A stretch of DNA of 64,000 nt from Nymphaea colorata (taxonomy: Eukaryota > Streptophyta > Magnoliopsida > Nymphaeales > Nymphaeaceae), in NCBI RefSeq assembly GCF_008831285.2, contig NC_045148.1, positions 1,612,001 through 1,676,000 of the forward strand, given 5' to 3'. This document shows positions 14,876 to 62,500 of this stretch, one piece after another. Every line of letters starts with the position of its first letter. Position 1 is the first letter of the stretch. A program made the position numbers and the translations under genes. The notes beneath the pieces are model-generated. The model had not been told where the DNA came from. It saw only the letters and a list, made by a program, of their open reading frames with translations, and did no database searches.

Positions 14876-15784
14876 GTTTTTATTCCTGATAAAAAGGACT
14901 TGGTAATATTCTTTCATTGTTTTTTGTCGTGCTCCTATTTTTCCTATAATTTTTTAATGTGGGGCATGGCATTATAAATAAGAAAAGAAGTACAAAAGCT
15001 ATCTTTCCCGCTCCATTAAAGGAACTCCTATTTTGATTTGGTTCGTATAATGATGTAACGCACGTGAAAAGTGGATCAAGAAACAATTAATTTTGTTTCG
15101 GTATCGTCTGTATGTATTCAGGTTATCATTGTAGATAAGATATCTTCATCAGTTCCTAATCTTCATTCATCTTCTGGGGCACCTGAATTTTTGTTATCAG
15201 TCATCGTTCAACTGTAGCCAGAGTCGTGATCCGCAATCGGAATTGATTACCGACTCTTAGTTTGGTTGTTGATGAGCGCAATCACGGTGGCTGCCGTTAA
15301 CATCATATATTAGTATCTGGTTCAGGTTTGGACTCAGATTGAAATGCACAGCTGCACCCAATGTTCAATTCCAATTGTTGATGCGGTTCTGGCTTGCTAC
15401 CAAATATGGACAGGTAGAATTCATGTCCCTTCACATGACCAACCTGAGTTCAAGGTATTTTTTAAGAATGAGATCGAGAATTTCGAATGAAATCGACAAA
15501 ATTCAAATTAGAATATCTGGAAACCCAGTTTAACGAAAATCTAAAACTTTGTCATTCAATTTCTACCAGTGCGGCCACCACCAGCCACGGCGCCCACCAT
15601 CGCCGCCACCACCACCACCACTGCCGTCATAAAGGATATCCATTAGCGTAACTGAATCAATCGACCTCATGGGCTTCCTCCATGCAAAACGTCCGAAGCA
15701 ACCCTTTGCCCTGAGTCCTTATAAATAACCATCGCCAAAATCAGCCAACCACAAACACGAAGAGAGAAAGAGACAGGGAGGTCC
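14876..15784. other. Intergenic: UGT80B1 3' side and EC1 promoter
   Basis: No coding sequence recognised. The stretch should hold the 3' UTR of UGT80B1 and the upstream region of the EC1 gene. A CCACCA/CCGCCA-rich stretch lies at 15570-15630. Confidence 0.5.
15719..15728 (+). promoter_or_regulatory. TATA box of the EC1 gene
   Basis: TTATAAATAA lies 57 bases before the EC1 start codon, leaving about 25-30 bases of leader. It is the best TATA-like site in the upstream region. Confidence 0.6.
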
Positions 15785-16171
15785 ATGGCGTCCATAACCA
15801 AGATGGCCATATTCATGCTTCTGGTAGGCCTTTTGTTGCCGGCATCAGGCAGGCAGTTGCCATTCCAGGCGGCAGTGGCCACCATTGAAGGAGGCGGCGG
15901 CCTCATGCAATGCTGGGAGGCTCTGTGGGAGCTGCGATCCTGCAGTGCGGAGATCATACTCTTCTTCCTGAATGGGGAGTCGTATTTGGGGATGGGTTGC
16001 TGCGGTGCTATCCGGATGATCACTTACAACTGCTGGCCATCGATGCTTTCTTCCCTGGGGTTCACGGCCGAGGAAGGTGACATACTCAAGGGCTATTGTG
16101 GTGCCATCGTTGCAACGCCGCCGGAATCTGGTGATGGAGGTGCGGTGCCTCCTGTTGGTCCGATGATCTGA
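15785..16171 (+). CDS. EC1: Egg cell-secreted protein, EC1 family (prolamin-like)
   Basis: EC1 proteins are small cysteine-rich proteins that egg cells secrete on sperm arrival. In Arabidopsis they promote sperm-membrane delivery of HAP2/GCS1 and gamete fusion. This intronless gene encodes 128 aa: a hydrophobic signal peptide (about 1-22), a short linker, then the prolamin-like domain with six cysteines at 43, 53, 72, 73, 83 and 105, including the adjacent CC pair. EC1 signature phrases are present: CWEALWEL, EIILFFLNGE, GCC-AIR, CWPSML and LGFTAEEGD-L-GYC. The start at 15785 is the first ATG after the TATA box. The tail after the last Cys is about 23 residues, rich in Gly and Pro, longer than the short tail I recall for Arabidopsis EC1. 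Its 3' end faces the ASR gene. Confidence 0.93.
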   Translation: MASITKMAIFMLLVGLLLPASGRQLPFQAAVATIEGGGGLMQCWEALWELRSCSAEIILFFLNGESYLGMGCCGAIRMITYNCWPSMLSSLGFTAEEGDILKGYCGAIVATPPESGDGGAVPPVGPMI

Positions 16172-16600: not shown

Positions 16601-17207
16601 CTAAAAGAAATGGTGGTGCTTCTTTCCTGATGCCTCCTCGGCCTCCCTTTTATCCTCCTTCCTCTCATGGTGCTCGTGGAAAGCGTAGCCGCCGGCGCCG
16701 ATGGCAGCAGCAGCAGCAAGCTCCTCCTCTATCTTGTGCCTGCGGGCATGCTCCGGATCCTTCTCTGACTGATGCTTCTCATGCTGCCAATTAGTCTTTA
16801 TGTTAGTCTCCAACTATGAGAAACTTGTAAGCCAACTATTTGAATTCGCCTTGATAATCTCAGAAAAAGTCAGGGTAGCTCTAGAATATACTCATAGAAA
16901 GAATGTAATCTGAAATTGTGAATAAAATAAGAAGCACATCAAAGACTTCCCAAAGATCAGTCAATTTGGACATTACCAGAAATTGTGAATAAAATAAGAC
17001 GCACATCAAAGGGTTTCCAAGATCGGTCAATTTGGAAATTACCAGAGCAAAAGCACCAGCAGCTGCTGATCCGAGCTCACCGAGCCGCTCATGGTGTTTG
17101 TGCTCTTTCTCCTCCTTCCTGTAGTCGACTGCCGGCGCAGGAGATGGTACATCTTCCTGATTCTGGTGGTGATGGTGATGGTGATGATGATGGTGGTGCT
17201 CAGCCAT
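16601..17207 (-). CDS. ASR: ASR protein (ABA/water-deficit stress and ripening induced), 2 exons, 115 aa
   Basis: ASR proteins are small, very hydrophilic, zinc-binding proteins induced by drought and abscisic acid. They act as chaperone-like protectants in the cytosol and as DNA-binding factors in the nucleus. Exon 1 is 17207-17043 (55 aa), exon 2 is 16783-16601 (60 aa plus stop), with GT-AG borders in phase 0. The N-terminus has a run of 11 histidines (residues 4-14), a typical ASR zinc-binding region. The ABA/WDS domain follows: [10 protein letters not shown] at the end of exon 1, then [36 protein letters not shown] and the lysine/His tail GKKHHHFF. Length and the single intron fit the family. 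The donor region is tandemly duplicated inside the intron (16912-17046). The gene converges on EC1. Confidence 0.93.
16912..17046. repeat. 67-bp tandem duplication covering the ASR exon 1 donor
   Basis: Two units (about 16912-16978 and 16979-17046) share most bases. The copy next to exon 1 carries the donor used in the gene model. The second copy carries an identical CTG|GTAAT donor at 16976-16975. Confidence 0.85.
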
Positions 17208-17830
17208 GGTGATGTCAGAGAACGAAGACGAAGACAATCCAAAAGAAAGCAACGAAACTGTGTAGCTGTAGAAACAGGGGAGATGGAGAAAGGAGGGAGG
17301 CAAGGGACTATTTGTATGCCAAAGAGCAAAGAAGTAGGGGCTCCAAACTTCACACGCTTAGATAAAGGACTCCATGGACGGCTCAGATTGCTTTTTTGTT
17401 GGTTAATTAATCTCAGCCGATGAGATTATTGCGACTTCTAACTGCATTTGTGCGCAAGAATAGCGGTCAAAAAAATTAGAAATAACGGATATATATTATC
17501 ATCAAATATTTTTTTATTGGAATTTCTATCGTTCATGGAATTTGCCATTTAAGAAACTCTATATGTTTGTTTATTTTGATTTTTCACCATATACGTTTCC
17601 ATTGTTGTTTTGGTAAAAAGCTCAACAGTCCAACAATGTTGGATCTTGGGTATGGATCGGAGACTCCATCTTTTCTGATACAAATGGAAATGGATCCCCT
17701 TTCAGATCGACCAGAACCAAAAATAGACCCGTCTCAACCGCCAGGGGTTGCCAGATTCAAAATTCACGGATGAGGATCACAGCTATCACAGTAAGATCCA
17801 AGAACATATTGTTTATGATATTTATAAGTT
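17208..17830. other. Intergenic between the ASR start and the U6 gene
   Basis: This is the upstream region of the ASR gene (read on the - strand), followed by AT-rich sequence. I see no further gene and no clear TATA box for ASR. Confidence 0.4.
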
Positions 17831-17897: not shown

Positions 17898-17917
17898 GTC
17901 TCTTCGGAGACATCCGA

Positions 17918-17949
<32 letters not shown>

Positions 17950-17999
17950 GGCCCCTGCGCAAGGATGACACGCACAAATCGAGAAATGGTCCAAATTTT
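17898..17999 (+). ncRNA. U6: U6 spliceosomal snRNA
   Basis: U6 forms part of the spliceosome catalytic core with U2 and U4/U5. The RNA starts with the 5' stem-loop GTCTC-TTCG-GAGAC and continues with the conserved core, including GATACAGAGAAGATTAGC, CCCCTGCGCAAGGATGACAC and AAATGGTCC, without visible damage. The usual plant stem is GTCCC-TTCG-GGGAC. Here one C-G pair has become T-A on both sides, so pairing is kept. A run of nine T follows at 17996-18004 and would stop Pol III. It may be a functional gene copy or a recent well-preserved pseudogene. Confidence 0.9.
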
Positions 18000-18004
18000 T
18001 TTTT
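17996..18004 (+). terminator. Oligo-T Pol III terminator of U6
   Basis: Nine consecutive T directly after the U6 3' end (TCCAAA), as expected for Pol III termination. Confidence 0.8.
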
Positions 18005-23439: not shown

Positions 23440-24665
23440 TCACCAAAAATCTGATTTAGACTCCCCTTGCCATCTCTGAATGCCACCAAAATGAGCAAGT
23501 ATCTGGACATTAGCATCAAACATAACATATTTGACGTTATGATTATCTGAGAGCATGTTCTTTTTTATTTCTGGTATGACCAGAACATTGTTTAGTGTGA
23601 GAATTTGATGGCCAGTGGAGATCTTGACCATTCCAGTATGTGTAGTGGCAAGCTTTTCACCATTTCCAACCATTACTTTTTCATTTCCACAATATTTCGG
23701 CATGGAATAGAGATTACCTGGACTATCCGTGATATGGTTTGATGCTGCTCTTGCATCCATGAACCAGGTTTGATCTTGTTCATCAGCAATCTTTAAAGCA
23801 GCAAGGGCCTTTGGAACATCTTCAACTCGAAATGCCTGATTGAATATGTGTCAGCAGTGACTTAGCTTATTGCAAATTTGGCACATCATACCTTGTAGGG
23901 ATTTGCAAACTGTTTATTCTTTGGATCACCTTTTGTCCTGACATTTTCTGCTCATATTGTTGTTCGCTTCAGAGAATTCTCTTCCTACTGAATTGAAATT
24001 TTGCTTGTTGCGATTACTGTAGTGCATGGCAGTTGATCATTATTTCGTTACGCTGAGTGGTGGTTGATTTCAGCCTCTTCATCTTGAAGCGCATGTTGGT
24101 CTCATGAGCCTGCAGTAAGGCAACAACTTCGGCGTATTGCATGGTGAAAGGCCTTGTGAGCATGGAGGTGACAAACGCCTTATAGCCATCACCTAGGCCA
24201 TTTAATAACCAAAACAGTTTGATTTTGATCAGAAATAGGCTTGCCTATGGCAGCCAACTCATCGCAAATAGTCTTGGGCTATGGATAAGGTCTTTTTGCA
24301 ATAAAGTTGTGATCATTGGGTCAACGAGCTCTTGATTCATGAGCAAAGGCTGTAATAAGAGCATCTCATACTTCTTTTGAAGTCTCCCAACCAACAACTA
24401 AACCAATAACTTCTTTTGATAGAGTTTCCGTGATCCATCTCTTCAAAAGACAATCTCGGCCAAGAAGATGAGTTTTCCATAGTAGGAAATTTGATTGATT
24501 CAGCTTTAGTGAGACGGAGTTTGCCATGTTAAGACTATAGGGGTGTAGATACTTAGCTTCCACGGTCTGGTGGTTGATCGAAACCCTTCCTTAGAAGATG
24601 GATGCCTGCTCCGAATCACCACTAAAGGTAGCACGCTGCCCTTAAGATCGAGCACTCTAATACCA
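23440..24665 (-). mobile_element. Truncated Ty1/copia retrotransposon (gag and protease remnants)
   Basis: Read on the - strand, the order is a tRNA-iMet-type primer-binding site (24665-24645, TGGTATTAGAGTG), a gag start with MANSVSLKLNQSNFLLWK (24366-24563), a middle gag piece with FVTSMLTRP and QYAEVVALLQAHE, a decayed zinc knuckle (CQICNKLSH) and the aspartic protease region (23440-23760) with WFMDARAASNHIT and VLVIPEIKKNMLS. Frames are interrupted by stops and shifts. The protease active site normally reads DSGA but is DARA here. Integrase, reverse transcriptase and RNase H are absent, so the copy cannot move by itself. Confidence 0.8.
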
Positions 24666-32079: not shown

Positions 32080-32512
32080 ACGAACTCTCTCTCTCTCTCT
32101 CTGAGTATATTTAACAAATTTCTCGTTCCCTTCAGTTCTCCCTCATGAGTCTCTTCTCCATGTCTGCTGTCGTCGCCCTTCCGTAACTGTAAGCACCATG
32201 ACCCATCTGAGTCAGATCAAAAGGGAATTGGCTTCGCCGCCCAAATGATGAGGGAGAGAGGAGAGGAGGGAAGAGGGAGATTGGAGGAAGATAGACATTT
32301 TGTGTTATTTTTGTTCAGCGCACTTTTTAATTCCTCTTACTTTTCCATGTTGTTGGTTAAGCTTTCTACACGATCATTTTAGGTGGGTGCCGGGATTACT
32401 TCTCTTAGAGGAGTCTGAGAGAGAGAGAGAGAGACGGGGGGTGTTGTTTTCGGCCTTCTTGGGGAGAGAGTCTCCTCTGTCCCTCTCTCATTTCTCTTCT
32501 TCTCGGGGACTT
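32080..32512 (+). promoter_or_regulatory. CT/GA-rich promoter and 5' leader of the CESA gene
   Basis: Contains a CT run (about 32085-32102) and a GA run (about 32417-32434) just before the start codon. Such tracts are common in plant core promoters and leaders. The ORF extends upstream of the ATG at 32513, but that part is low-complexity and not CESA-like. Confidence 0.4.
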
Positions 32513-35500
32513 ATGGCTACCAATGGTCGGCTTATTGCTGGCTCTCACAACAGAAACGAGTTCATACTGATCAATGCCGAAGAACTAAACAAGGTACGCT
32601 CGATTTGGGGAAAAAAACCCATATTTGCCCTCTCAAATGCACCTTCTTATACACTTCGTGGAATGCCCGTTCGGCTAGGCCGTGTTCTTCTGTTTTACTG
32701 AATGCCCTGTGTCTTGGTGGATTCTGATTGTCGCAGGCGTCAAAATTTTATGTTACTTCTCATTTTTTCTTCTTTCAGCTTCTTTCCGCCCCCTCCCATC
32801 CACCCCCCTCCTTTCCATTTTTCCTCTTTTTTTGTTACGAAAAGATCGCAACCGTTATTTACGATTCCTTCTCGATTTTCTTTTGGTGTTGTTCAATTTT
32901 GCTTTTTTTCGTTTTTTTCTTCTCTCCGTGTCTACTTATCAAAATGCTAGTACCACTTGGCTAATTCTCTTTTTGAATATGTATTCAGGTGTCATCCTTT
33001 TTCTCTGCAGTTCCGTATTTTTTTTCTCTTGCCATTACTTTTTGCTGTATTTTTTTCTCCTTTTTTGCTTCAGCCTTCCTCAGTTTGACTCACAAATTAG
33101 TCGGTTTGTTTTCTATCTCAGGGCAAAACCGGTCATCTTTTCCGTTGGCCTTTGATTTAGGAAATTGCGCATGCTTCCTCCACTTTACTTTTAGTTCGCT
33201 TCCGCTTAGCCATTTAGATGGATGTGCTGACCAATCTAGCTTGGTGTTTGTGTTGCCCTTAGAGCTGAACCCACTTTGACATGCTGCTGTCTGAAATTGT
33301 TGATTTTCTGTTTCCTGTGTTGTGCTTGTGAGCTGACAGTCCACCTCTTGGATTTTTAGTTTGTATGGCCAGTTCTTATTACTATAGTTGGGTCTTCCTT
33401 TTCTCTTCGATGACGTGGATTATTGTTTTTTTTCAGCCAAAGACGAAAGAATTAAGTGGGCAGATCTGCCAGATTTGTGGAGATGGGATCGAAATAACAG
33501 TTGACGGAGAGCCTTTTGTGGCCTGTAATGAATGTGCCTTCCCTGTCTGTAGAACTTGCTATGAATATGAAAGGAGGGAGGGTACTCAGGCATGTCCACA
33601 GTGCAGAACTAGATATAAAAGGCATAAAGGTCAAACGTATTTTCACTTTATGTCTTCAAATTTTATCTGTCATATGGTAGAAACGTTTATGTGAAATAAG
33701 CTCTTCTTTCGTTTTTTTATTTTGTCAACACAATTTTTTGATACCTAAGGGTGAAGATAGAATCAAAAAGCTTCTATTTGGGCTAGAGATCTGCATATTC
33801 AAATGGACAATTTTTTTTTGTCACATTTTCAATGGTCTGAAAGGAAACGAACTTCTCAGTCCTGGGAAATTATGTGCATTTCAAGTAAAGATGTGACTTC
33901 TTTTCAGTGTGTATTTTCAATTGAATGTAGAGAAATTTGTTCTTTTCAGGTAGTCCTAGAGTCGATGGTGATGAAGAAGAAGATGATTTCGATGACTTGG
34001 AGAATGAATTTAGCTTTGGCGGTCATAGGAACCAAAATGATTCTCGGCAAATTGCTGAGTCAATGTTGCATGGCAGGCTCAATGTTGGTCGTAGTGATGC
34101 AGGGGACACATTTGGATCTCATGGCGCATCTGACATTCCACTCCTTACATACCGAGGAGAGGTACATAATTAACATGAATTATGCTTTTGGATGGTATTT
34201 TGGCATCTGCAGCTTTTCTCGTCTTAATAGTTTCTTGTGTTTTAATTCAGGATGCTGGAGTTCCTGATGATAGTCATGCACTTATTGTACCTCCATTTGC
34301 CGGGGGAAGCAGCAACCGTGTTCATCCTGTATCATTTCCAGATCAATCTGTGTCATGTATGTTGTCAGTATTTCGTGTGTATTTTTTGTTCTTGTAAGAC
34401 CGTGATTGATTCTTGATCTATATCTTTTGTATCGCAGCTGGGCCACCTAGGCCTTTGGATCCTAACAAAGATTTGGCAGTGTATGGTTATGGAAGTGTCA
34501 CATGGAAGGATCGAATGGAGGAGTGGAAGAAGAGGCAGAATAAATTGCAGATGGTTAGACATGAGAATGCAAATCCTGATGGTGATGAGCCAGATGATCT
34601 TGATTTGCCCACGTATGTATATTCCTTTTGTTTTGACAAACTTTTCTTTTGGGTAACATAATAGTGTTCTTCTAGTCGCATATCATATTTAGTGAACCTT
34701 GGATAGCTTGCTGGTAGTCATGTACTATATCTTTTTTATATTCACATTTATGAACTTCCTTTTATTTATTATTTACAGAAATGATGAAGGAAGGCAACCA
34801 TTATCCAGGAAGGTCCCCATTCCTTCAAGCAAAATAAATCCATACAGAATGATCATTGTACTGCGGCTTGTAGTCCTTGGCTTTTTTTTCCATTACAGAA
34901 TTCGTCATCCTGTTCCAAATGCATACGGACTGTGGCTTACTTCTGTTATTTGTGAGATATGGTTTGCTCTATCATGGATTCTTGATCAATTTCCTAAATG
35001 GTCTCCTATTGAGCGAGAAACGTACCTAGATCGACTGTCATTGAGGTACACAGCATTTGTAGGCTAACTGCTATACATAATTTTAATCCTTTTTGTGAAT
35101 GTATGTTTTTTGCCTTTCCTAAATAAGAACGACCACTTTGCATATCTTTAAGATTCTATGTTTGAATTCTCAGGTATGAAAGAGAGGGGAAGCCATCAGA
35201 GCTTGCTGATATTGACATTTTTGTCAGTACAGTGGATCCTATGAAGGAACCTCCATTGATTACTGCAAACACAGTGTTGTCTATTCTTGCAGTGGACTAT
35301 CCAGTTGAAAAAGTTGCTTGCTATGTCTCAGATGATGGTGCTGCCATGCTGACATTTGAAGCACTCTCAGAAACATCTGAGTTTGCTAGAAAATGGGTCC
35401 CATTCTGCAAAAAATACAGCATTGAACCTAGGGCTCCTGAATGGTACTTTGCACAGAAAATTGATTATCTTAAGGATAAGGTTCATCCAGATTTTATTAG

Positions 35501-38500
35501 AGAGCGACGAGCTATGAAGGTCAGTTTTTGATGTGTATGTTTTGTTCTGAGGCTACATTCCGTTAAATCTTGCTTTGCATCAATCACTGTGTTCAGCAAA
35601 TTGAATAGGATCAGAGTCCAGCATTGCTGATCAAGATAGTTCTAACTTTTGATTGACTGCACAATACTTTTGAACATATTACTTGCACTTGTAATTTTTC
35701 TATTAGGCATTTCCCTCCACCAACCTAGATTTCTGTTGGCAATATGAAAGTGTTCGTTTTTAACATGTTTTGTCTGTCAATTCTTAATTTGGTTTCAGTT
35801 GCAAGCACCACAATCTGTTGTTTCTGTATTCCGAAAGTTTTTGCAGCTCTCACAGTGGAAACTGACTTGCTTCACGGCCTCTAAATTTTCCTCAGAGAGA
35901 ATATGAAGAGTTCAAAGTTCGGATCAATGCCTTAGTTGCACAAGCTCAGAAAGTCCCGGAGGATGGTTGGACCATGCAAGATGGAACTCCTTGGCCTGGA
36001 AATAATGTACGCGATCATCCAGGAATGATACAGGTATGGGGTTCTACACTGCTATTTGGGAACTGAAATTTTATAAAAGTTCATCTGTAGATAGGCTATA
36101 TCACATGGGTGCAGGGTGCGGGATGCGACAAATTCGAAAAAAATTTAGGTGCGGGTGTGGTGAGAGCATATATATATATGATCTGTTATATATAAGTAAT
36201 TTTATTTGTCTATATTTTAAAACATTTTTTTATCAAGGTTAGCTTAATCTCATACAAAACTCAAAGTTTTATTAAATAAAATAGGGGAGGAAAGAGAGAA
36301 GAGGGGAAAAGGAAGAGGAAAAGATAGAAGAAGGAAAAAAATAAAAAGGAAAAAGAGAAAAGAAGAATGGGTGTGGTCAGCAGCAACCGACTGAGTCAAG
36401 TGCCGTGTCGGGCCGCACCCGCACCTGAGTTGACGCGGATGCACCACCATATTTGACGCACCTGTGTGACTTAGTAGATAGCTGTACGCTTATCCTGGCG
36501 AACGGACATAGAACTAATGCTAGCTCAAAGTCAAATTAGTTTAGAACTATGCATGTCAAACACTCACAAGTTTGGAGGGTCTCAATTTAGCGTAAAATGT
36601 TTTTACAGTTATAGGCTACACTTTCTCTGTTTGTAGAGCCTGTCACAGGCCTTCTGATGTTAAGTCACAACTTGTGATGCATTAGGAATTGCAAGCAAGG
36701 CAAGCATGACTAAATGAAATGTTTTATGCCCCAAAAATTGCTTTTTTCTGGTGTCTTTTAAATGCATGTTGCTCTAGAACTAGCTTCTTTTCCTTCAAAC
36801 TGTCTCCCACATACTGTAAGTTTGTCCTTACTACTTTTCCATTGCCTCTCTTTGATTACACCTAAAAATTGTATCTCCAAGTCACCACTAATTGCATCAG
36901 CAATTATTGTTGATATGATCTCTTTCAGACTATCCGAGTTGAGATGGAGATGTCATCACTTGCATAACTAAATGTGTGTTACACCTGCATGTCTGTCTGT
37001 ATGGCATCGATGTTCATGTGCACTGAATTTCTCCATCTTTTAGTTAAGAAAACTTGATTTTCTTTGATATTGTACTAAGCCACTGGAAACGCAGAAAAGT
37101 ACTTATCAATACCTGGTTGATGTTCCTGATGGGGAAGTTGCACAATGTCACAGAAATGTCTTGCTGATTGGTTATGTGAAACTAACTTAATAAGGTCCAT
37201 TCACAAAAGGTGGTGTATTTTCTAAATATCATACGGTAACTATTTAGGATTATAAATTTATCAGTTTTCTTGAACAAAAGAACTAAAGTTTTCTTTGAAT
37301 AATATGCTGAAGCTTTTTTTGCCTTTATCCGACATTTCGTTCTTGATCTATTCTCTCGAGTTATGGTTTTCTCTCTTGTGATCCTTGAAAGGCTTGACAG
37401 TCTTTATAATCTTGCTTATATGCAGGTTTTCCTTGGCCCTAATGGTGTGGTTGATGTGGAAGGAAATGAGCTACCTCGTTTGGTGTATGTCTCGCGTGAA
37501 AAAAGACCTGGATTTGATCATCACAAAAAAGCTGGTGCTATGAATGCTTTAGTATGTCACACAGTTTGTTCTGAGATCTCATTCTGTGTTTGTATATAAT
37601 ATATATACATAGATAGATAGATATATATAATGTCAAACCAATGTTTGTAACTGATTTGTTTGGATGTCTCAAGGTGCGAGTGTCGGCTGTTCTCTCCAAT
37701 GCACCATTTCTTCTTAATGTTGACTGTGATCACTACATCAATAACAGCAAAGCTCTCAGAGAAGCCATGTGCTTCATGATGGATCCTATATCTGGGCAAA
37801 AAGTGTGTTATGTTCAATTTCCTCAGAGATTTGATGGGATAGATCGACATGACAGATATGCAAACAGAAATATTGTTTTCTTTGATGTATGTCATTCAAT
37901 TGTAATTGGATGAATGTTCTTAAAGCTAATAAGTTATAATTTAAAGTTTGATCTTTTTTAACCTGATATTTTCTTATTAGGTCAACATGAAAGGGTTGGA
38001 TGGCATTCAAGGACCAATTTATGTAGGAACAGGATGTGTCTTCAGAAGGCGTGCTCTTTATGGATATGATGCTCCTGTCAGGGAGAAACCCCCAAGAAAG
38101 TCTTGCAACTGTTGGCCCAGGTGGTGCTGCTTATGCTGTGGGTCAAAGCGTAAGAAGGGAATAGGAAAGACCAAGGTGAACAAAAAGACCAAATCGAAGG
38201 AGACTTCTTCACAGATATATGCCTTAAATGATGCTGGAGAGGGGCTTCAAGGTGTCGTGTATTTTTAAGTTATAACTTCAATTCTTTACTCAACATTACT
38301 CACAGTTTTCAGCATGTCAAAGCATTTTGTAATCATGCCAACTGCAACAAAAATGGCCATTCATCTGTTTCTTTTCTCCATTTCAGAAACCAAGGGGGAA
38401 AAAGATCTCCTGCAACCCCTGAGGAAACTTGAGAAAAAGTTTGGCCAATCTCCTGTTTTCGTGGCAGCCACTCTCAAGGAGAATGGTGGAATAGTTCATG

Positions 38501-39789
38501 CTGCTGAAGCGTCACTCTTGAATGAAGCTATTCATGTTATAAGTTGTGGCTATGAAGATAAAACAGAATGGGGAAAGGAGGTAAATAAATTTCCAGGCGC
38601 CAATTTTTGGCATTGGTGACATTCCAAGCACGGGCTAGGTTTGCAATGGCTGAATGTAAAATGTATGATTTGGTTCTGTCCATGGCAGGTCGGCTGGATA
38701 TATGGCTCTGTGACGGAGGATATACTGACAGGATTCAAGATGCATTGCCATGGTTGGCGCTCTGTTTACTGCATACCCAAAAGGCCAGCATTCAAAGGAT
38801 CTGCACCCATCAACCTCTCTGACCGCCTTCACCAGGTCCTTCGATGGGCACTTGGGTCAGTGGAGATCTTCTTAAGCAAGCACTGCCCTATCTGGTATGG
38901 TTATGGGGGTGGTTTGAAATGGTTGGAGAGGCTTTCTTACATCAATTCTGTCGTATATCCATGGACATCTTTGCCACTCATTGCCTACTGTACATTACCG
39001 GCTATTTGCCTTCTCACTGGAAAATTTATCATCCCTGAGGTACTTAACTGTACCAAACCATATTTTCCTTTTTAGTTATCAGATATTTGGATGATTCTCT
39101 TTATCTCTCTTCCTAAGATATAAGTATTTAGTTAGAATCTGTTATATGTTATATTTCTGCCTACTAAATTCTGATGTTTATATCCTCTTATTTAACAGGT
39201 TAGCAACTATGGAAGCATAATTTTCATCTCACTCTTTTTGTGCATCATAGCAACTGGTGTGCTTGAGATGCAGTGGGGCAGGATCGGAATTGATGATTGG
39301 TGGAGAAATGAACAGTTCTGGGTGATAGGTGGCGTCTCATCCCACCTCTTTGCTCTTTTCCAGGGCCTGCTGAAGGTGCTTGCCGGAGTTGACACCAGTT
39401 TCACAGTCACTTCAAAAGGTGGAGATGATGGAGAGTTTGCAGAGCTCTATGTATTCAAATGGACATCGATGTTAATTCCTCCTTTGACATTGCTGATCAT
39501 CAACATAATTGGGACTGTGTCGGGGATATCTAGCGCAATCAACAACGGCTATGACTCATGGGGTCCACTGTTTGGGAAGTTCTTCTTTGCCTTCTGGGTC
39601 ATTGTCCACCTCTATCCTTTCCTGAAGGGTTTGATGGGGAAGCAGAACAGAACACCAACCATTGTGGTAGTCTGGTCTATTCTTTTGGCTTCAATTTTCT
39701 CACTTGTGTGGGTGCGGATCAATCCGTTTCTGAGCAGATCAACAGGGCCTGTGTTAGAAATTTGTGGATTGGACTGTGAAAATAACTAA
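32513..39789 (+). CDS. CESA6: Cellulose synthase A catalytic subunit, CESA6-like (14 exons, 1087 aa)
   Basis: A plasma-membrane glycosyltransferase (GT2) that polymerises UDP-glucose into beta-1,4-glucan in the rosette complex. The N-terminus, starting [17 protein letters not shown], resembles the primary-wall CESA6/2/5/9 group. Exons: 32513-32593, 33437-33629, 33950-34161, 34251-34356, 34438-34612, 34779-35045, 35174-35519, 35896-36033, 37426-37551, 37674-37886, 37981-38251, 38387-38580, 38689-39039 and 39199-39789. All joins keep frame. The RING-type zinc finger has cysteines 38, 41, 57, 60, 65, 68, 80 and 83. Two membrane spans lie at about 270-325, then the catalytic loop with DDG (about 398-400), DCD (565-567), TED (783-785) and QVLRW (823-827), then a hydrophobic C-terminal membrane block from about 850. 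A cysteine/lysine-rich class-specific region follows YGYDAPV. It ends GLDCENN. Length fits CESA6 (about 1084 aa). Intron 8 carries a hAT element. Confidence 0.96.
36095..36473. mobile_element. Short non-autonomous hAT element (MITE) in CESA intron 8
   Basis: A 379-bp element bounded by an exact 8-bp direct repeat, GTAGATAG (36087-36094 and 36474-36481). It starts GCTATATCACATGGGTGC and ends GCACCTGTGTGACTTA, giving inverted termini of about 16 bases. Subterminal GGTGCGGGTG-type repeats match the style of the element at 9574-10782. The interior is AT- and purine-rich with no coding content. Confidence 0.85.
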
Positions 39790-41277
39790 ACTGGATTGCC
39801 ATTAGATGATCTTGGTTGTGTAGCATGTGGAAGCTTGCTGAAAGAGACAACTGCTTTGGCGATTTTTGATAAAAAAGCTTATTTGGTTCATCAATGGTCG
39901 CTTTCGGTGTGGAAGCCATCAAGCCCTGTGTAGATAAGAAGCATGGAACACTGATCAAGTCTCATATTCATTCTGTGTTTATTCATTCTTTTCATAGTGT
40001 TCAAATATTGTATACTTTGGCTTTATTTTTCTCATTTTTTTCTCGCTTCGGCTAATGGTGGCTTCAGGGGCCTGTGTAATTCAATGGTCTGAACTTAGAG
40101 CAGCTTGTGTCAGAAATGTATCATTTTTCTCCCTTGTTGAAAAGGGCAGGTTACCTTAATATCTCTCTACTTTAAGTCGATGGATGACCGAAACTCTGGC
40201 TTGAATTGACTCTGTGGCTTGAATTGAATTGATTCACTGAGCTCATGGTCCTTCCAAGAACGAAAGTTGACAAACTAGTCATATATTGAAGGAGAGGAGA
40301 CTTCTTCCGATGCAGCGGTCAGGCTTATGTTCTGTGAAATTCAGATTCATATAATAGGAATTACTCTGCTTTGAAGCTACTTTAAGAGCAATAAATGTTA
40401 AAAAGTACTCATAAAGAAAAGGACCAACATTGAAGAGCTCTTGGAGAATCTGGCTCGCACACTATTTTTTTCACAAATCTACTTTTAAACGTGATAGAAT
40501 TCAATACCAGCAATACGTTGAGCGCATATTTTCTTTACCTAAATTTGAAGACAAAGTGAAATTTTGAAAAAGAATTGTCGTCGACTCTTTCGTTGATGAC
40601 AACCAGTTCTTGTAGCGAAATGCTTACCTTGTCCGTTATTTGAATGCATATCGCTCAGCTATTCTTTCTTAAACGTGGTGGAATAATATGCTTCACTGCT
40701 GGTAACATTAAGCCAATCCCTTCTCGCCTTCCTTCTTTTCCCTTTTCTTGGTCCTTTCTGAGTCCCTGTGCCCCTCCTCTTCCCCGTCCAAGGCTTCTAC
40801 CTGCTCTTCCTTCTACCATGCTAGCTTTGGTCCTGCTGCCCCATAGCAAGCGCCCTCTAAGCCCACCCAACTGGCCTTTTTTATCTGACAATAGAAAGAT
40901 CCCGCTGACCCAATGAAAGCACATTCTCGACAAAATCGATTCCAACAGTCCTGTTTCAAGAACACAATCGGTGGATAACTCTGAGCTTGATAATGCATCA
41001 CTACAGAGCCATATTGTGGCACACCCACAGCCCGCTTGCTTTCTCAAGTCAGAAGCCACATACTCACTGATTATCTGTAATAAGCCAAAGCCGAAGTTCC
41101 CTTTCTTTAACATCTGCCTTTTGAATAACGGAGGAGAAGCAGTCCTCACATTTTCTCCAATTTTTCTCCGTCTCTGTCCTGAGGTTACATCTCCCTCTAT
41201 TGTTCAAAATAAGAGTTCCGAACTACCCGAATTCCTCATTTGGCCATGTGAAAACAGATTCTCCAACATTTCACAAC
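39790..41277. other. CESA 3' flank and intergenic sequence
   Basis: The first few hundred bases should be the CESA 3' UTR. After that no gene is recognised. Long overlapping frames on both strands at 40655-41516 show no domain I know and are probably decayed repeat sequence. Confidence 0.4.
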
Positions 41278-54943: not shown

Positions 54944-56325
54944 CTCCGCCCTCTTCCTCTCTTCTCCCTAAACCCTTCGTCCTCCTTAGCAAGGGGTTTC
55001 TCCTTTTCACCTTCCGGGCTCCCTCCTCCTCCTACGGTCCTACCTGATACACACCTTCCCGCCGTCTCGTCTTCCCTCTGCCCCCTTTCTTCCGTCCCTC
55101 GTCTCGTCTGCGGCCTCTGCTTTCTGATTCGGATCGAGAACCAATGAATTGGATCGCGATGTCGTCCAGCGCTCTTCTTTTATTCTTTTTGATGTTTATT
55201 AGGGGAATCATCTCATCTTCCACGTAAAAACTCTAAAATCGGTTTCCTCTCGCTCGCTTCATGTTTAAATAGATCTACGCACAGGACATATGGTTCACTG
55301 TTTGCAATTGAAAAGAACAACACATTAGAACGTAACGGCAACAATGAAATTCAATTCCTTAAATATGATCCGCTCCACGACCTCTCACTTTTGGATAATG
55401 GATTGAGTTAGGATTACTTTACCCTGCACTGGGATCTTCCCTTGGACAAGTGGGATCGGTCCATCACAATTTAGAGTCGACTCGGTTTTTGAAGCAGAAG
55501 AACCAAACTGACCTTCCAAGGATTTTAAAGTTCCTTCTTAATATTAGACCATTTATATGAACACTGCCATTATTTATGAACTGCTTTAACTTATTGAGAT
55601 GCCCAAAATAATGACAAAATTTGAAAAAAAAAAATTCCAGTTTCTACATCGATCCAACATAAGTTCTCATAACTCTTTTGTTCTTGATTAAAGAAAGACC
55701 ATCAACTATGCTTTCTGCATTTTCCATTCTAGAAGGAACGATTATGCTCTGAGCCGAATTTAAGAACGAGAAAGCACAGTTTCTACCAAAAGCTCCTCAT
55801 CTTGTTAACACCTTCAGTTGCGTGCTCCTCATCTGGCTTGCGCTAAATTCTATATATTTTGTCAATGTTTGGTTGGTCCTGCATTGATTTTTTGTTCACA
55901 ACGCAATTTCAATTCATTGGTTGTATAATAATCCAGAGTACCAAAAGAGATGGGAAAATCTCGTCCTATCAATGAAACTGTACACACAAAAAGGTAGAAT
56001 ATATACATATATAGATATATAGGCATATCATGAGAGCAGGGACAAAGAAAAATTATTGTTTTCTTGAATCAGATGGAACAAACAAAGGCACCGAGAAGCA
56101 CCTGCTTCTGCAGGGCTCCAAATCGATCAGCCTTGGTTAATGAACTCAAGAAAAATGGAAGAGGAAGAGCTAAGGAAAGAAAGGGTTAAGCCAAAAGGCA
56201 TGACATCATGCAATGTATCACCGGCCGGCCGGCCGGCTAACCTGAGCTAACCTAACCTAACAAAGTCTTGGGCTGGATGCAATGGGGAAATTAGCCTTTC
56301 TCATGGAGCAACGCAATCGGACACC
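54944..56325. other. CSN8 upstream region and 3' side of the CEEC-repeat gene
   Basis: GC-rich leader and promoter sequence of CSN8 up to about 55150, then AT-rich sequence. (CCGG)4 at 56221-56237 is a short self-complementary CG tract about 90 bases past the next gene's stop codon. No additional gene found. Confidence 0.4.
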
Positions 56326-56907
56326 TTATGGAAACTCATAGTAGTGGTACCAACTGCGCTCGTCCTCACCCTCACCCTCAAATTCTGCATGCCAATGCTC
56401 ACGTTCATCAGACCAGTGGTGATGCTCCTCCTCTTCTTCTTCGCATTCTTCGCACTCATGGTGGTGCTCCTCTTCCTCTTCCCATTCATGGTGGCGGTGC
56501 TCCTCTTCTTCTTCGCATTCCTCGCACTCATGGTGGCGGTGCTCCTCCTCCTCTTCGCATTCTTCACACTCATGGTGACGGTGCTCCTCCTCCTCTTCGC
56601 ATTCTTCACACTCATGGCGACGCTCTTCCTCCTCGTGGTGGTGGCGCTCTTCCTCCTCGCATTCTTCGCACTCATGGTGATGCTCTTCTTCCTCGCACTC
56701 TTCGCATTCGTGGTGAAAACGCCACCACTTTTGATCGTGAATTGGCTGGCTGTCTGCCGTCACATTGCTCATCCTAGTGATGTTGTTAATGATGTTGGTC
56801 ATGTTGACCTGAACTGTTTCCACTTTGGGGACGTCCCTTAGTTCTCTTCCTCCATTGGCAGCACACAAGAACAAGGCCGTGGATAGTAAGAGAGGAAGAA
56901 GAGACAT
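56326..56907 (-). CDS. Secreted His/Cys/Glu-rich repeat protein (CEEC repeats), function unknown, 193 aa
   Basis: I do not recognise this family. It is an intronless frame on the - strand with its own TATA box. Residues 1-20 form a clear signal peptide (LLPLLLSTALFLCAA), so the product should enter the secretory pathway. Residues 21-64 are ordinary sequence with three N-glycosylation sequons (N35, N42, N48). From about 65 to 165 the chain is a tandem repeat of about 14 residues, HHECEECEEEEEHR: six copies keep the CEEC pair, giving 12 cysteines, and two copies have lost it. A tail with Trp, Glu and aromatic residues ends HYYEFP. Dense His, CxxC pairs and acidic runs suggest metal binding in the cell wall or apoplast. 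That is inference. Other frames are open across the repeat but lack the signal peptide. Confidence 0.75.
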   Translation of the reverse strand: MSLLPLLLSTALFLCAANGGRELRDVPKVETVQVNMTNIINNITRMSNVTADSQPIHDQKWWRFHHECEECEEEEHHHECEECEEEERHHHEEEERRHECEECEEEEEHRHHECEECEEEEEHRHHECEECEEEEEHRHHEWEEEEEHHHECEECEEEEEEHHHWSDEREHWHAEFEGEGEDERSWYHYYEFP

Positions 56908-56977
56908 GGTTGCTCACTAGATTAGATTGAACAAGGAAACCAGATGGATAGAGTAAGGACATAGGAGATATCATGGA

Positions 56978-56985
56978 TTTATATA
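56978..56985 (-). promoter_or_regulatory. TATA box of the CEEC-repeat gene
   Basis: On the - strand TATATAAA lies about 70 bases before the start codon at 56907, leaving a leader of roughly 40 bases. It supports this reading frame as a transcribed gene. Confidence 0.6.
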
Positions 56986-59080
56986 GACGGCGAGACCAAC
57001 TTGCGATTTATTTATGCACTCCTTCGGTCCATGGTTGTTCAACTAGTTTTCCAAATAGAGCAGTTAAGAAAGGTTAGCGATTATGATAAATATTTGATAT
57101 ACACCTATCAGCGTTCGTAGTCATTAGTTTATTTTTAATGTTGCATGCGTTATGATTCCTTCAAGAAGACTAACACTTTCTCAAGATATTGCACACTGAT
57201 GTTGGCGAATCCCATATAATATTTAGTTCGAAACTAGCCAATTCTGGAATAATGGTCAGGATTTCTTGATTACCTACTACTTTTCCATGCACATTTCATT
57301 AGTTTTGAGTTCACGTTAAGTCCATATATACTTGCATATTGTTTCAATTCGTGGTTCATTTGGCAATGGGAATTGATGCTTGCATATTTGGAATTCAATC
57401 TATGTGTGTATTCCCCCATAAACGTGAAGATTAGATGACTGAATTTTTTGAGATAAACCACATTTTTGTTAGGAAAAGACAAATAATAATTTATTGGCAT
57501 ATATATGCCCCCCCATTTTCTGATTTACTAGAAATAACGCACATTTTATGGATTTTGAATGAATATGGACTTTAATGGCATGAGGATAGGAGATTATGGT
57601 CTCTGTGGATAAATTTAAGCCAGTTATGTTGCATTTAGGTATGTGATAAGCAGGGATGCAAAGGCAAGAGCAGTCTTCCATGTTCAATTAGTGGCGAAGT
57701 AAGTTCAGACTAATGAGATTGCCGATTTAAGTATAAGCCACAAACAGGTATCAAATGGGGTGTCAGTGGATTTGATTTAGATCTGATATCTGACAGAAAT
57801 ACTTCAAACAAGTCAGATACGGAAAAATTTTAGCATCTGATTGAGAAATCGGATTGGATTCGCATCTAAAAAATGGCATTCAATTGAATAAATATCCAAC
57901 CACATCTGAATTCATAAGTGAATTTGGATTTAGTTTTAAACAAGTGTCCTATATCCAATATCAGTACATTTTGGAAAATGGATCTTAACATATAATAATG
58001 TGGTTTGGATTCGGCAGCATATTTAGTATTCATATTTGGATATGAAAATGCTGGATCTGTTATCCAAACACCTTTCCGTTGGATCCCAGATCTCATTGTA
58101 CCCAAGTCAGATCCATGTTCTTGAGAAATAAGCTTGATCGGAAAAATCATGTCATGTGGCATATTTTGTTCTATAAACCTTCAATCTGGAGGGCTTTGAA
58201 TCTTGAAACCTATGTTCCATATGATGAGCCAATGTAAAAATGTGGAATTACAACAAACAGATCTGGCTGTGCTTCTTTAGCAAGGTGTCTTAACCTCTGA
58301 TTAGCATATTGAGACACAGGAGCTGCAAGCTTGAACATGTCAAGCACCAGCTCTGGTAACAAATTGACAAGAACTTCTTGTGATTATGTGTTCATCTGTT
58401 CTAAAGATTTATCTCGAAAGGCTGACTCTTTTGTGATCATCCAAAGAAAAAACCGAACTTGTGATCATGCCAAGAGATGAACCTTGTGTATTAGAACCCT
58501 GACTTGCTTGCAACTTGAAATTCAAGTCCAACCCTTTACCCAGGTGAACGAAGCTCTTGTCAGCCAAGGGGTTGGACCTGATTAATTTAACCCGATTAGA
58601 TTAGTCTGTTTAATTACTTTTATTGGTCAACTAATATGTATTATAATCCAAGTATTCTCGTTAGCAGATTTATATTTTAGTCCCTGTTTATGGTCCAAAG
58701 AGCAATGCTTACTATTTCATTGGTGAAATACCCAACCATAAACTAACATCTTAATTTCTTTTCATTTTCAGCCCGGCCTTTTAGATGTCATGAACGTCTC
58801 GGGTTGGTATGATCCAAAACGGCATGTGTTAATGGAAAGTAAACCAAACTCTCTTCAAGTTGTAACAATGTGAATATGATCAAATTCACTGAGCTTTATC
58901 TCCAATAATAAACTAGTTTGGCTTAAACTGGCAAGCGTTTGCCCACCCTCAGCTTTCCGAAACATACACACACGCACCCACACACACTAAAAAGTCCACT
59001 TAGGAGTCGTTTGATTGCAGGGACATTCTGTCAGTGGCCCATGATTAGGACATGTTCATAGAACATTAGCTCTAGTAAGG
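56986..59080. other. Intergenic, no gene seen
   Basis: AT-rich sequence. 57760-58110 holds GATCTGAATT/GGATTTGGATT-like words typical of a decayed dispersed repeat. Short frames on the - strand have no domain. Confidence 0.45.
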
Positions 59081-61940: not shown

Positions 61941-62500
61941 TCATCAGTCCCAAGGTGACTTAAGTTATTTGAATCAAACCCTCTAGGATATTGAATTCAA
62001 AAAAATTTCAATAGTAGTAACTTTAGATTTCTTGTTTGAAGATGTATGAATACAACAGTAATCAAGCCATTCATGTATGATCTAGTTTAGAACACACACT
62101 TATTTGATAGACAAAAAAAGTCATCAGTTCCAAGGTGACTTAAGTTGTTTCAATCAAAGCTTCCAGGATATTGAATTCAAAAAAATTTCAATAGTAGTAA
62201 CTTTAGATTTCTTGTTTGAAGATGTATGAATACAACAGTAATCAAGCCATTCATGTATGATCTAGTTTAGAACACACACTTACCCCCCCAAATTTGATAG
62301 ACAAAAAAAGTCATCAGTTCCAAGGTGACTTAAGTTATTTGAATCAAAGCTTCCAGGATATTGAATTCAAAAAAATTTCAATAGTGACTTTAGATTTCTT
62401 GTTTGAAGATGTATGAATACAACAGTAATCAAGCCATTCATGTATGATCTAGTTTAGAACACACACTTACCCCCCTAAATTTGATAGACAAAAAAGAGTC
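61941..62500. repeat. Three-copy tandem array, unit 180-190 bp
   Basis: Units start at TCATCAGT at 61941, 62121 and 62311. Each contains CCAAGGTGACTTAAGTT, GGATATTGAATTC, TTTCAATAGT, AGATTTCTTGTTTGAAGATG, CAAGCCATTCATG and GAACACACACTTA. Copies 2 and 3 differ by a short indel around a C run (62283-62289). They are nearly identical, so the expansion is recent. No coding content. Confidence 0.93.

Follow-up and report, generated by a model that had tools for sequence, protein, structure and literature searches.

The 64,000-nucleotide stretch of the Nymphaea colorata genome analyzed here (the window; positions 1,612,001 to 1,676,000 of contig NC_045148.1, assembly GCF_008831285.2) contains on its reverse strand a real plant gene, and not a chance frame, for a protein with a predicted secretion leader and a tandem array of units rich in His, Cys and Glu. 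Two paralogs are present in the same genome, and the reading that we favor for the family, at what we judge to be an even chance, is that of a secreted or vacuolar N-glycosylated protein that buffers thiol-loving and borderline metal ions with high capacity and low specificity. The source contig is labeled C11 (window = C11:1612001-1676000), and window positions are used for the parts of the gene:

56326..56907, reverse strand: whole coding sequence, 193 residues, single exon as read (ATG at 56907, stop codon TAA at 56328-56326)
56851..56907, reverse strand: hydrophobic leader, residues 1-19, a likely signal peptide by hydropathy, with the cut before GRE placed by eye
56758..56805, reverse strand: sequon block, residues 35-50, with NMT (N35), NIT (N42) and NVT (N48)
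56416..56709, reverse strand: array, residues 67-164 (98 residues), eight units, six with HECEECE
56329..56415, reverse strand: C-terminal tail, residues 165-193 (29 residues), His/acidic/aromatic, unlike the paralog tails

The layout largely followed the original prediction: the hydrophobic leader (MSLLPLLLSTALFLCAANG), predicted to be a signal peptide, and all three N-x-T sequons were located, and the array, announced as about 100 residues with six copies keeping the Cys pair and two lacking it, was found with exactly this division. The eight units (residues 67-78, 79-91, 92-98, 99-112, 113-126, 127-140, 141-150 and 151-164) measured 12, 13, 7, 14, 14, 14, 10 and 14 residues as read from the translation, which leaves the proposed 14-residue period exact in only four of them. 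CEEC was absent from units 92-98 (no Cys) and 141-150 (EWEE instead), while in all six CEEC units a His stood two residues before the CxxC motif and in five a second His stood three residues before it. The mature chain of 174 residues, counted after the presumed leader, contained 67 Glu, 28 His, 12 Cys, 12 Arg and 3 Gly and was strongly acidic (computed pI ~4.5).

An open frame alone would be little proof of a gene at this locus, because units whose length is a multiple of three leave several frames open across the array. A period that is mostly a multiple of three is what speaks for a chance reading of low-complexity repeat DNA, together with an uninformative codon-usage score of the N-terminal domain (N-domain), which was equalled by 18% of random stretches and surpassed in one reverse frame. 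Against it stands the distribution of changes among the units. Across the six CEEC units, a 27-nucleotide core free of gaps had 0, 0 and 7 variable sites at codon positions 1, 2 and 3 (9 sites each; hypergeometric P 4e-5). When adjacent units were compared over 73 codons (the last unit being cut at residue 162), codon position 3 accounted for 18 of the 21 nucleotide differences (binomial P 1e-6), and 15 of 20 codon differences were silent. Only the coding frame, among the six checked, was open across the whole gene; the one antisense frame with this wobble phase, in which the same unit changes are silent, contained stops. Among random open reading frames of at least 100 residues one of 200 reached 193 residues, and four of 200 exceeded the leader hydrophobicity cut of 2.4, just above the value of 2.35 for the window protein, so that the hydrophobicity comparison added nothing to the case.

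The host assembly (408 Mb, 783 contigs) was searched for relatives. Two further copies were found in tandem on another long contig (C1), bringing the family to three related genes:

C1:14065804-14066199: paralog C1b, uninterrupted single frame, 132 residues
C1:14069569-14070006: paralog C1a, uninterrupted single frame, 146 residues

With the window protein as query, C1b and C1a were matched at E-values of 2e-6 and 4e-12; the C1b protein matched the other two copies at 9e-14 and 2e-8, while the C1a protein matched C1b at 7e-12 and the window copy weakly (0.15). The N-domain of the window protein alone, with the array left out, still matched the paralogs at 7e-5 and 0.011, so that the paralogs carry a homologous repeat-free domain. 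All three genes have in common the hydrophobic leader, GGRE, VNxT, a paired sequon at the same place, and acidic CxxC/His units, the latter written with Asp in C1a (CDDC three times, CEDDC once) and as CEEC in C1b (twice). The strict motif H[DE]C[DE][DE]C[DE] occurred six times in the window copy, twice in C1a and once in C1b, and a DNA pattern for it gave nine exact matches in the genome, all nine in the three family genes, whereas the reversed control pattern had no match at all. The genes diverged rapidly outside the motif, and the window copy ends in an aromatic, acidic tail, while the tails of C1a and C1b contain Lys. A non-conserved N-terminus or a broken frame in relatives had been named beforehand as a sign of a chance frame; within this genome, the N-terminus is conserved and both frames are intact.

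Weak matches beyond the three genes also included L006 (E 4.98) and L020. Several others were rejected. L018 was the opposite strand over C1b; L015, L016, L017, L019 and L021 look like Glu-rich or unrelated frames; and at L040 (E 1.5, one stop) no CEEC/CDDC DNA was present on either strand and the similarity did not continue. Matches of the window protein to 16.6–17.2 kb of the window (E 0.001–0.04) fell in a His/Glu-rich region and were attributed to composition. This region belongs to an ASR-type gene (Pfam ABA_WDS; 16884-17357, reverse strand), whose predicted N-terminus is a His run, making it another candidate metal binder; beyond composition it has no homology to the repeat family.

Library searches returned no counterpart. 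In Pfam the window protein had two matches and C1b four (the best to bone sialoprotein, E 0.019), all under the cut-offs, and C1a had none; in NCBIfam four matches were obtained, all far below the cut-offs (the best to TolA, E 0.006). All of these were taken as composition or chance. A PDB sequence search with the window protein gave nothing up to E 10, and the single SWIM zinc-finger chain retrieved with the family alignment (E 0.27) was regarded as chance. Of 39 pattern stretches in the bacterial genomes scanned, a single one was confirmed; this match of 20 residues in Sanguibacter (L001) was likewise put down to chance because only residues 23-42 were spanned and the E-value is relative to the candidates; in two scans of viral contigs 3 and 347 pattern stretches were found and none was confirmed. 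The unit was not described in the open-access literature searched, a scope outside which most subscription literature lies. The original prediction of a possible new family is borne out as to the family, by the two uninterrupted paralogs, while "new" would mean here without counterpart in the libraries searched, with no Pfam or NCBIfam match above cut-off and no PDB match for the window protein.

The expectation of repeat growth also held. The three full central 42-nucleotide units of the window array differ pairwise by only 1, 4 and 5 nucleotides, and against the six CxxC-like units of the window copy (CEEC) the paralogs have four (C1a) and two (C1b). This agrees with an array expanded in the window copy, and fits recent unit duplication or homogenization.

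The C1 and C11 loci lie within a collinear duplicated block with like gene order and orientation: a prolamin-like gene, the 16.8-kb stretch next to the ASR gene, cellulose synthase, the gene located at 45.6 kb, the His-Cys-Glu repeat family, and a gene about 36 kb past the end of the window. The block scan used a cut-off of 1e-6; the repeat-family pair was below that standard and was taken from a separate comparison (1.35e-6). Five pieces of the cellulose synthase copies (576 codons) gave a nonsynonymous divergence (dN) of 0.05 and a synonymous divergence (dS) of 1.04. For the N-domains, the pair window-C1a (54 codons) gave dN 0.43, dS 1.13 and dN/dS 0.38 (no bootstrap of 300 reaching 1), window-C1b (55 codons) 0.54, 1.00 and 0.55 (4 of 300), and C1a-C1b (58 codons) 0.35, 1.00 and 0.35 (0 of 300), all by a simple method, with dS nearly saturated and the alignment partly hand-made. 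Since the N-domain dS is similar to that of cellulose synthase (~1.0), the family is probably older than the block duplication, and the C1 tandem pair is probably about as old as this duplication. By the same estimates the N-domains are under constraint, albeit far looser than cellulose synthase. With N-domain dN/dS below 1 added to the codon-position bias, the sole open frame, the paralogs and the matches of the N-domain alone, the chance frame is scarcely credible and was rejected.

Around the coding sequence, three further features were noted:

57031..57056, reverse strand: block found upstream of both this gene and C1b (positions -149 and -151; 22 of 26 nucleotides identical; shuffle maximum 18, n=60)
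56977..56985, reverse strand: TATA box TATATAAAT, 78 nucleotides before the ATG (TATA boxes of the paralogs at -67 and -77)
56052..56057, reverse strand: possible poly(A) signal AATAAT, by consensus match only

The upstream block was not found in C1a, whose best matches to either copy fell at its own TATA region and did not rise above the shuffle maximum. A short CCGG/GGCC repeat (56221-56237) lies within the presumed 3' untranslated region. GGTGAG sites resembling donors in the tail and, near 56171, a pyrimidine-rich stretch resembling an acceptor, both noticed by eye, could give a spliced alternative end. We regard this as the less likely reading, since the His/acidic/aromatic composition of the tail continues up to the stop.

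The nearest analogues of the window family are animal HRC and the alder nodule metallohistins (AgNt84 and Ag164). The general features of HRC, a signal sequence and His-rich acidic tandem repeats, recur in the window protein, and HRC also has Cys-X-X-Cys repeats; however, HRC is a 170-kDa protein with 29-residue HRHRGH-acidic units, and its Cys cluster is set apart in a C-terminal domain, whereas the 12–14-residue units of the window family combine His, CxxC and acid (PMC6171002). Such a separate CxxC domain is missing from the window protein, where CxxC lies inside each unit, and in Pfam, with matches considered up to E 1, neither the window protein nor its two paralogs hit an HRC family. The metallohistins are plant His-rich metal binders, glycine- and histidine-rich according to a reference title (PMC11534348); the window protein, with 28 His and 3 Gly in 174 residues, is His-rich but does not share the Gly-rich part of this composition. 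CAL1 and DEF8 are small defensin-like plant proteins with a secretion leader and Cys that bind Cd; CAL1 folds as a globular defensin, has eight Cys and lacks acidic/His tandem units (PMC5811569). Scanning all three family proteins against Pfam gave no match to a defensin (CSalphabeta) or a metallothionein family. Plant metallothioneins and ASR proteins are low-complexity Cys- or His-rich metal binders as well, but they are cytosolic or nuclear and have no secretion leader.

The favored function, a metal buffer or carrier, is suggested by the retention of CxxC and His, the acidic run and the leader. The leader and the sequons point to the secretory pathway, and the apoplast or the vacuole is a likely destination, because no KDEL/HDEL, glycosylphosphatidylinositol-like or transmembrane end was seen in the window protein by eye. 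Because C1a swaps Glu for Asp and yet retains CxxC and His, the comparison suggests selection on the donor pattern and charge. Each full unit has two Cys and at least one His close by that could serve as metal donors surrounded by carboxylates, with donors enough, together with the Glu run, for one Cys2His2-type site per CEEC unit; several such sites would be strung along a flexible acidic chain, the number of units would determine the capacity, and the N-terminal glycans may hold the highly charged chain in solution. The ions buffered on the luminal side of membranes would be Zn, Cu and Cd, and perhaps Ca too. The chemistry has precedents: binding of Zn, Ni, Co, Cu, Cd and Hg is documented for metallohistins (PMC11534348), and CAL1, itself a plant protein carrying a secretion leader, binds Cd through Cys at pH 5.5 and 7.5 (PMC5811569).

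Several points weigh against a metal buffer. The N-domain dN of 0.35–0.54, compared with 0.05 in cellulose synthase at similar dS, means loose constraint, and the strict motif has dwindled to a single occurrence in C1b. CxxC in an oxidizing secretory compartment may be a disulfide, and His is a poor metal binder at acid apoplastic pH. CAL1 showed no significant binding of Ca, Mn or Zn (PMC5811569), so broad buffering cannot be taken for granted in a Cys-rich protein that a plant secretes.

If the CEEC pairs were disulfides and His bound poorly at acid pH, the acidic run would then make the protein an HRC-like Ca binder or scaffold. The corresponding alternative is an HRC- or calsequestrin-like luminal Ca buffer, in which an acidic His-rich chain binds Ca and partners and CxxC forms stabilizing or cross-linking disulfides. 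The 67 Glu of the mature chain suit it; the union of Cys pairs and His/acidic stretches in one unit (separate domains in HRC), the lack of an end for retention in the endoplasmic reticulum, by eye, and the lack of an HRC family match in Pfam do not, and we consider it unlikely. A defense protein, which would withhold Zn/Cu from microbes or act as a His-rich antimicrobial, accords with the leader, the fast divergence outside the motif and the array growth; many His-rich antimicrobials are cationic, however, and the window chain is strongly acidic, which makes this role rather improbable. Slightly less probable again is a redox or cross-linking protein of the wall or vacuole, with CxxC as thiol-disulfide switches and metal binding incidental: thiol isomerases have CxxC as their active motif (PMC12561257), but neither a thioredoxin-like nor any other fold was matched in Pfam or PDB, and the His and acidic surroundings are retained together with CxxC.

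The collinear genes inside the window include the cellulose synthase gene (32490-39790, forward strand), whose C1 copy served to date the block, and a gene for a small secreted-type protein with a Prolamin_like domain (15725-16168, forward strand), also with a collinear copy on C1. Elsewhere the window contains a U6 spliceosomal RNA gene (17898-18000, forward strand; full-length Rfam match), a retroelement remnant (23443-23850, reverse strand; Pol_BBD domain match) and a tandem array (61941-62500) of two to three copies of ~180–187-base units with 91–96% matches.

Metal chelation in plants is best known in the cytosol, with metallothioneins and phytochelatins, and only a few plant protein chelators are known to be secreted (CAL1, DEF8 and the metallohistins). 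A bolder form of the buffer reading, which we hold only tentatively and think somewhat doubtful, would see in the family an extracellular equivalent of metallothioneins, tunable through copy number: secreted plant glycoproteins of a kind not described before, in which each 12–14-residue unit is a self-contained His-Cys2-carboxylate site, with Glu and Asp free to change, the donors kept, and the number of units setting the capacity. A family retained since an old genome duplication, with a donor unit that is repeated and multiplies within one gene, would offer a simple, testable route by which extracellular or vacuolar metal capacity may shift between species or accessions.
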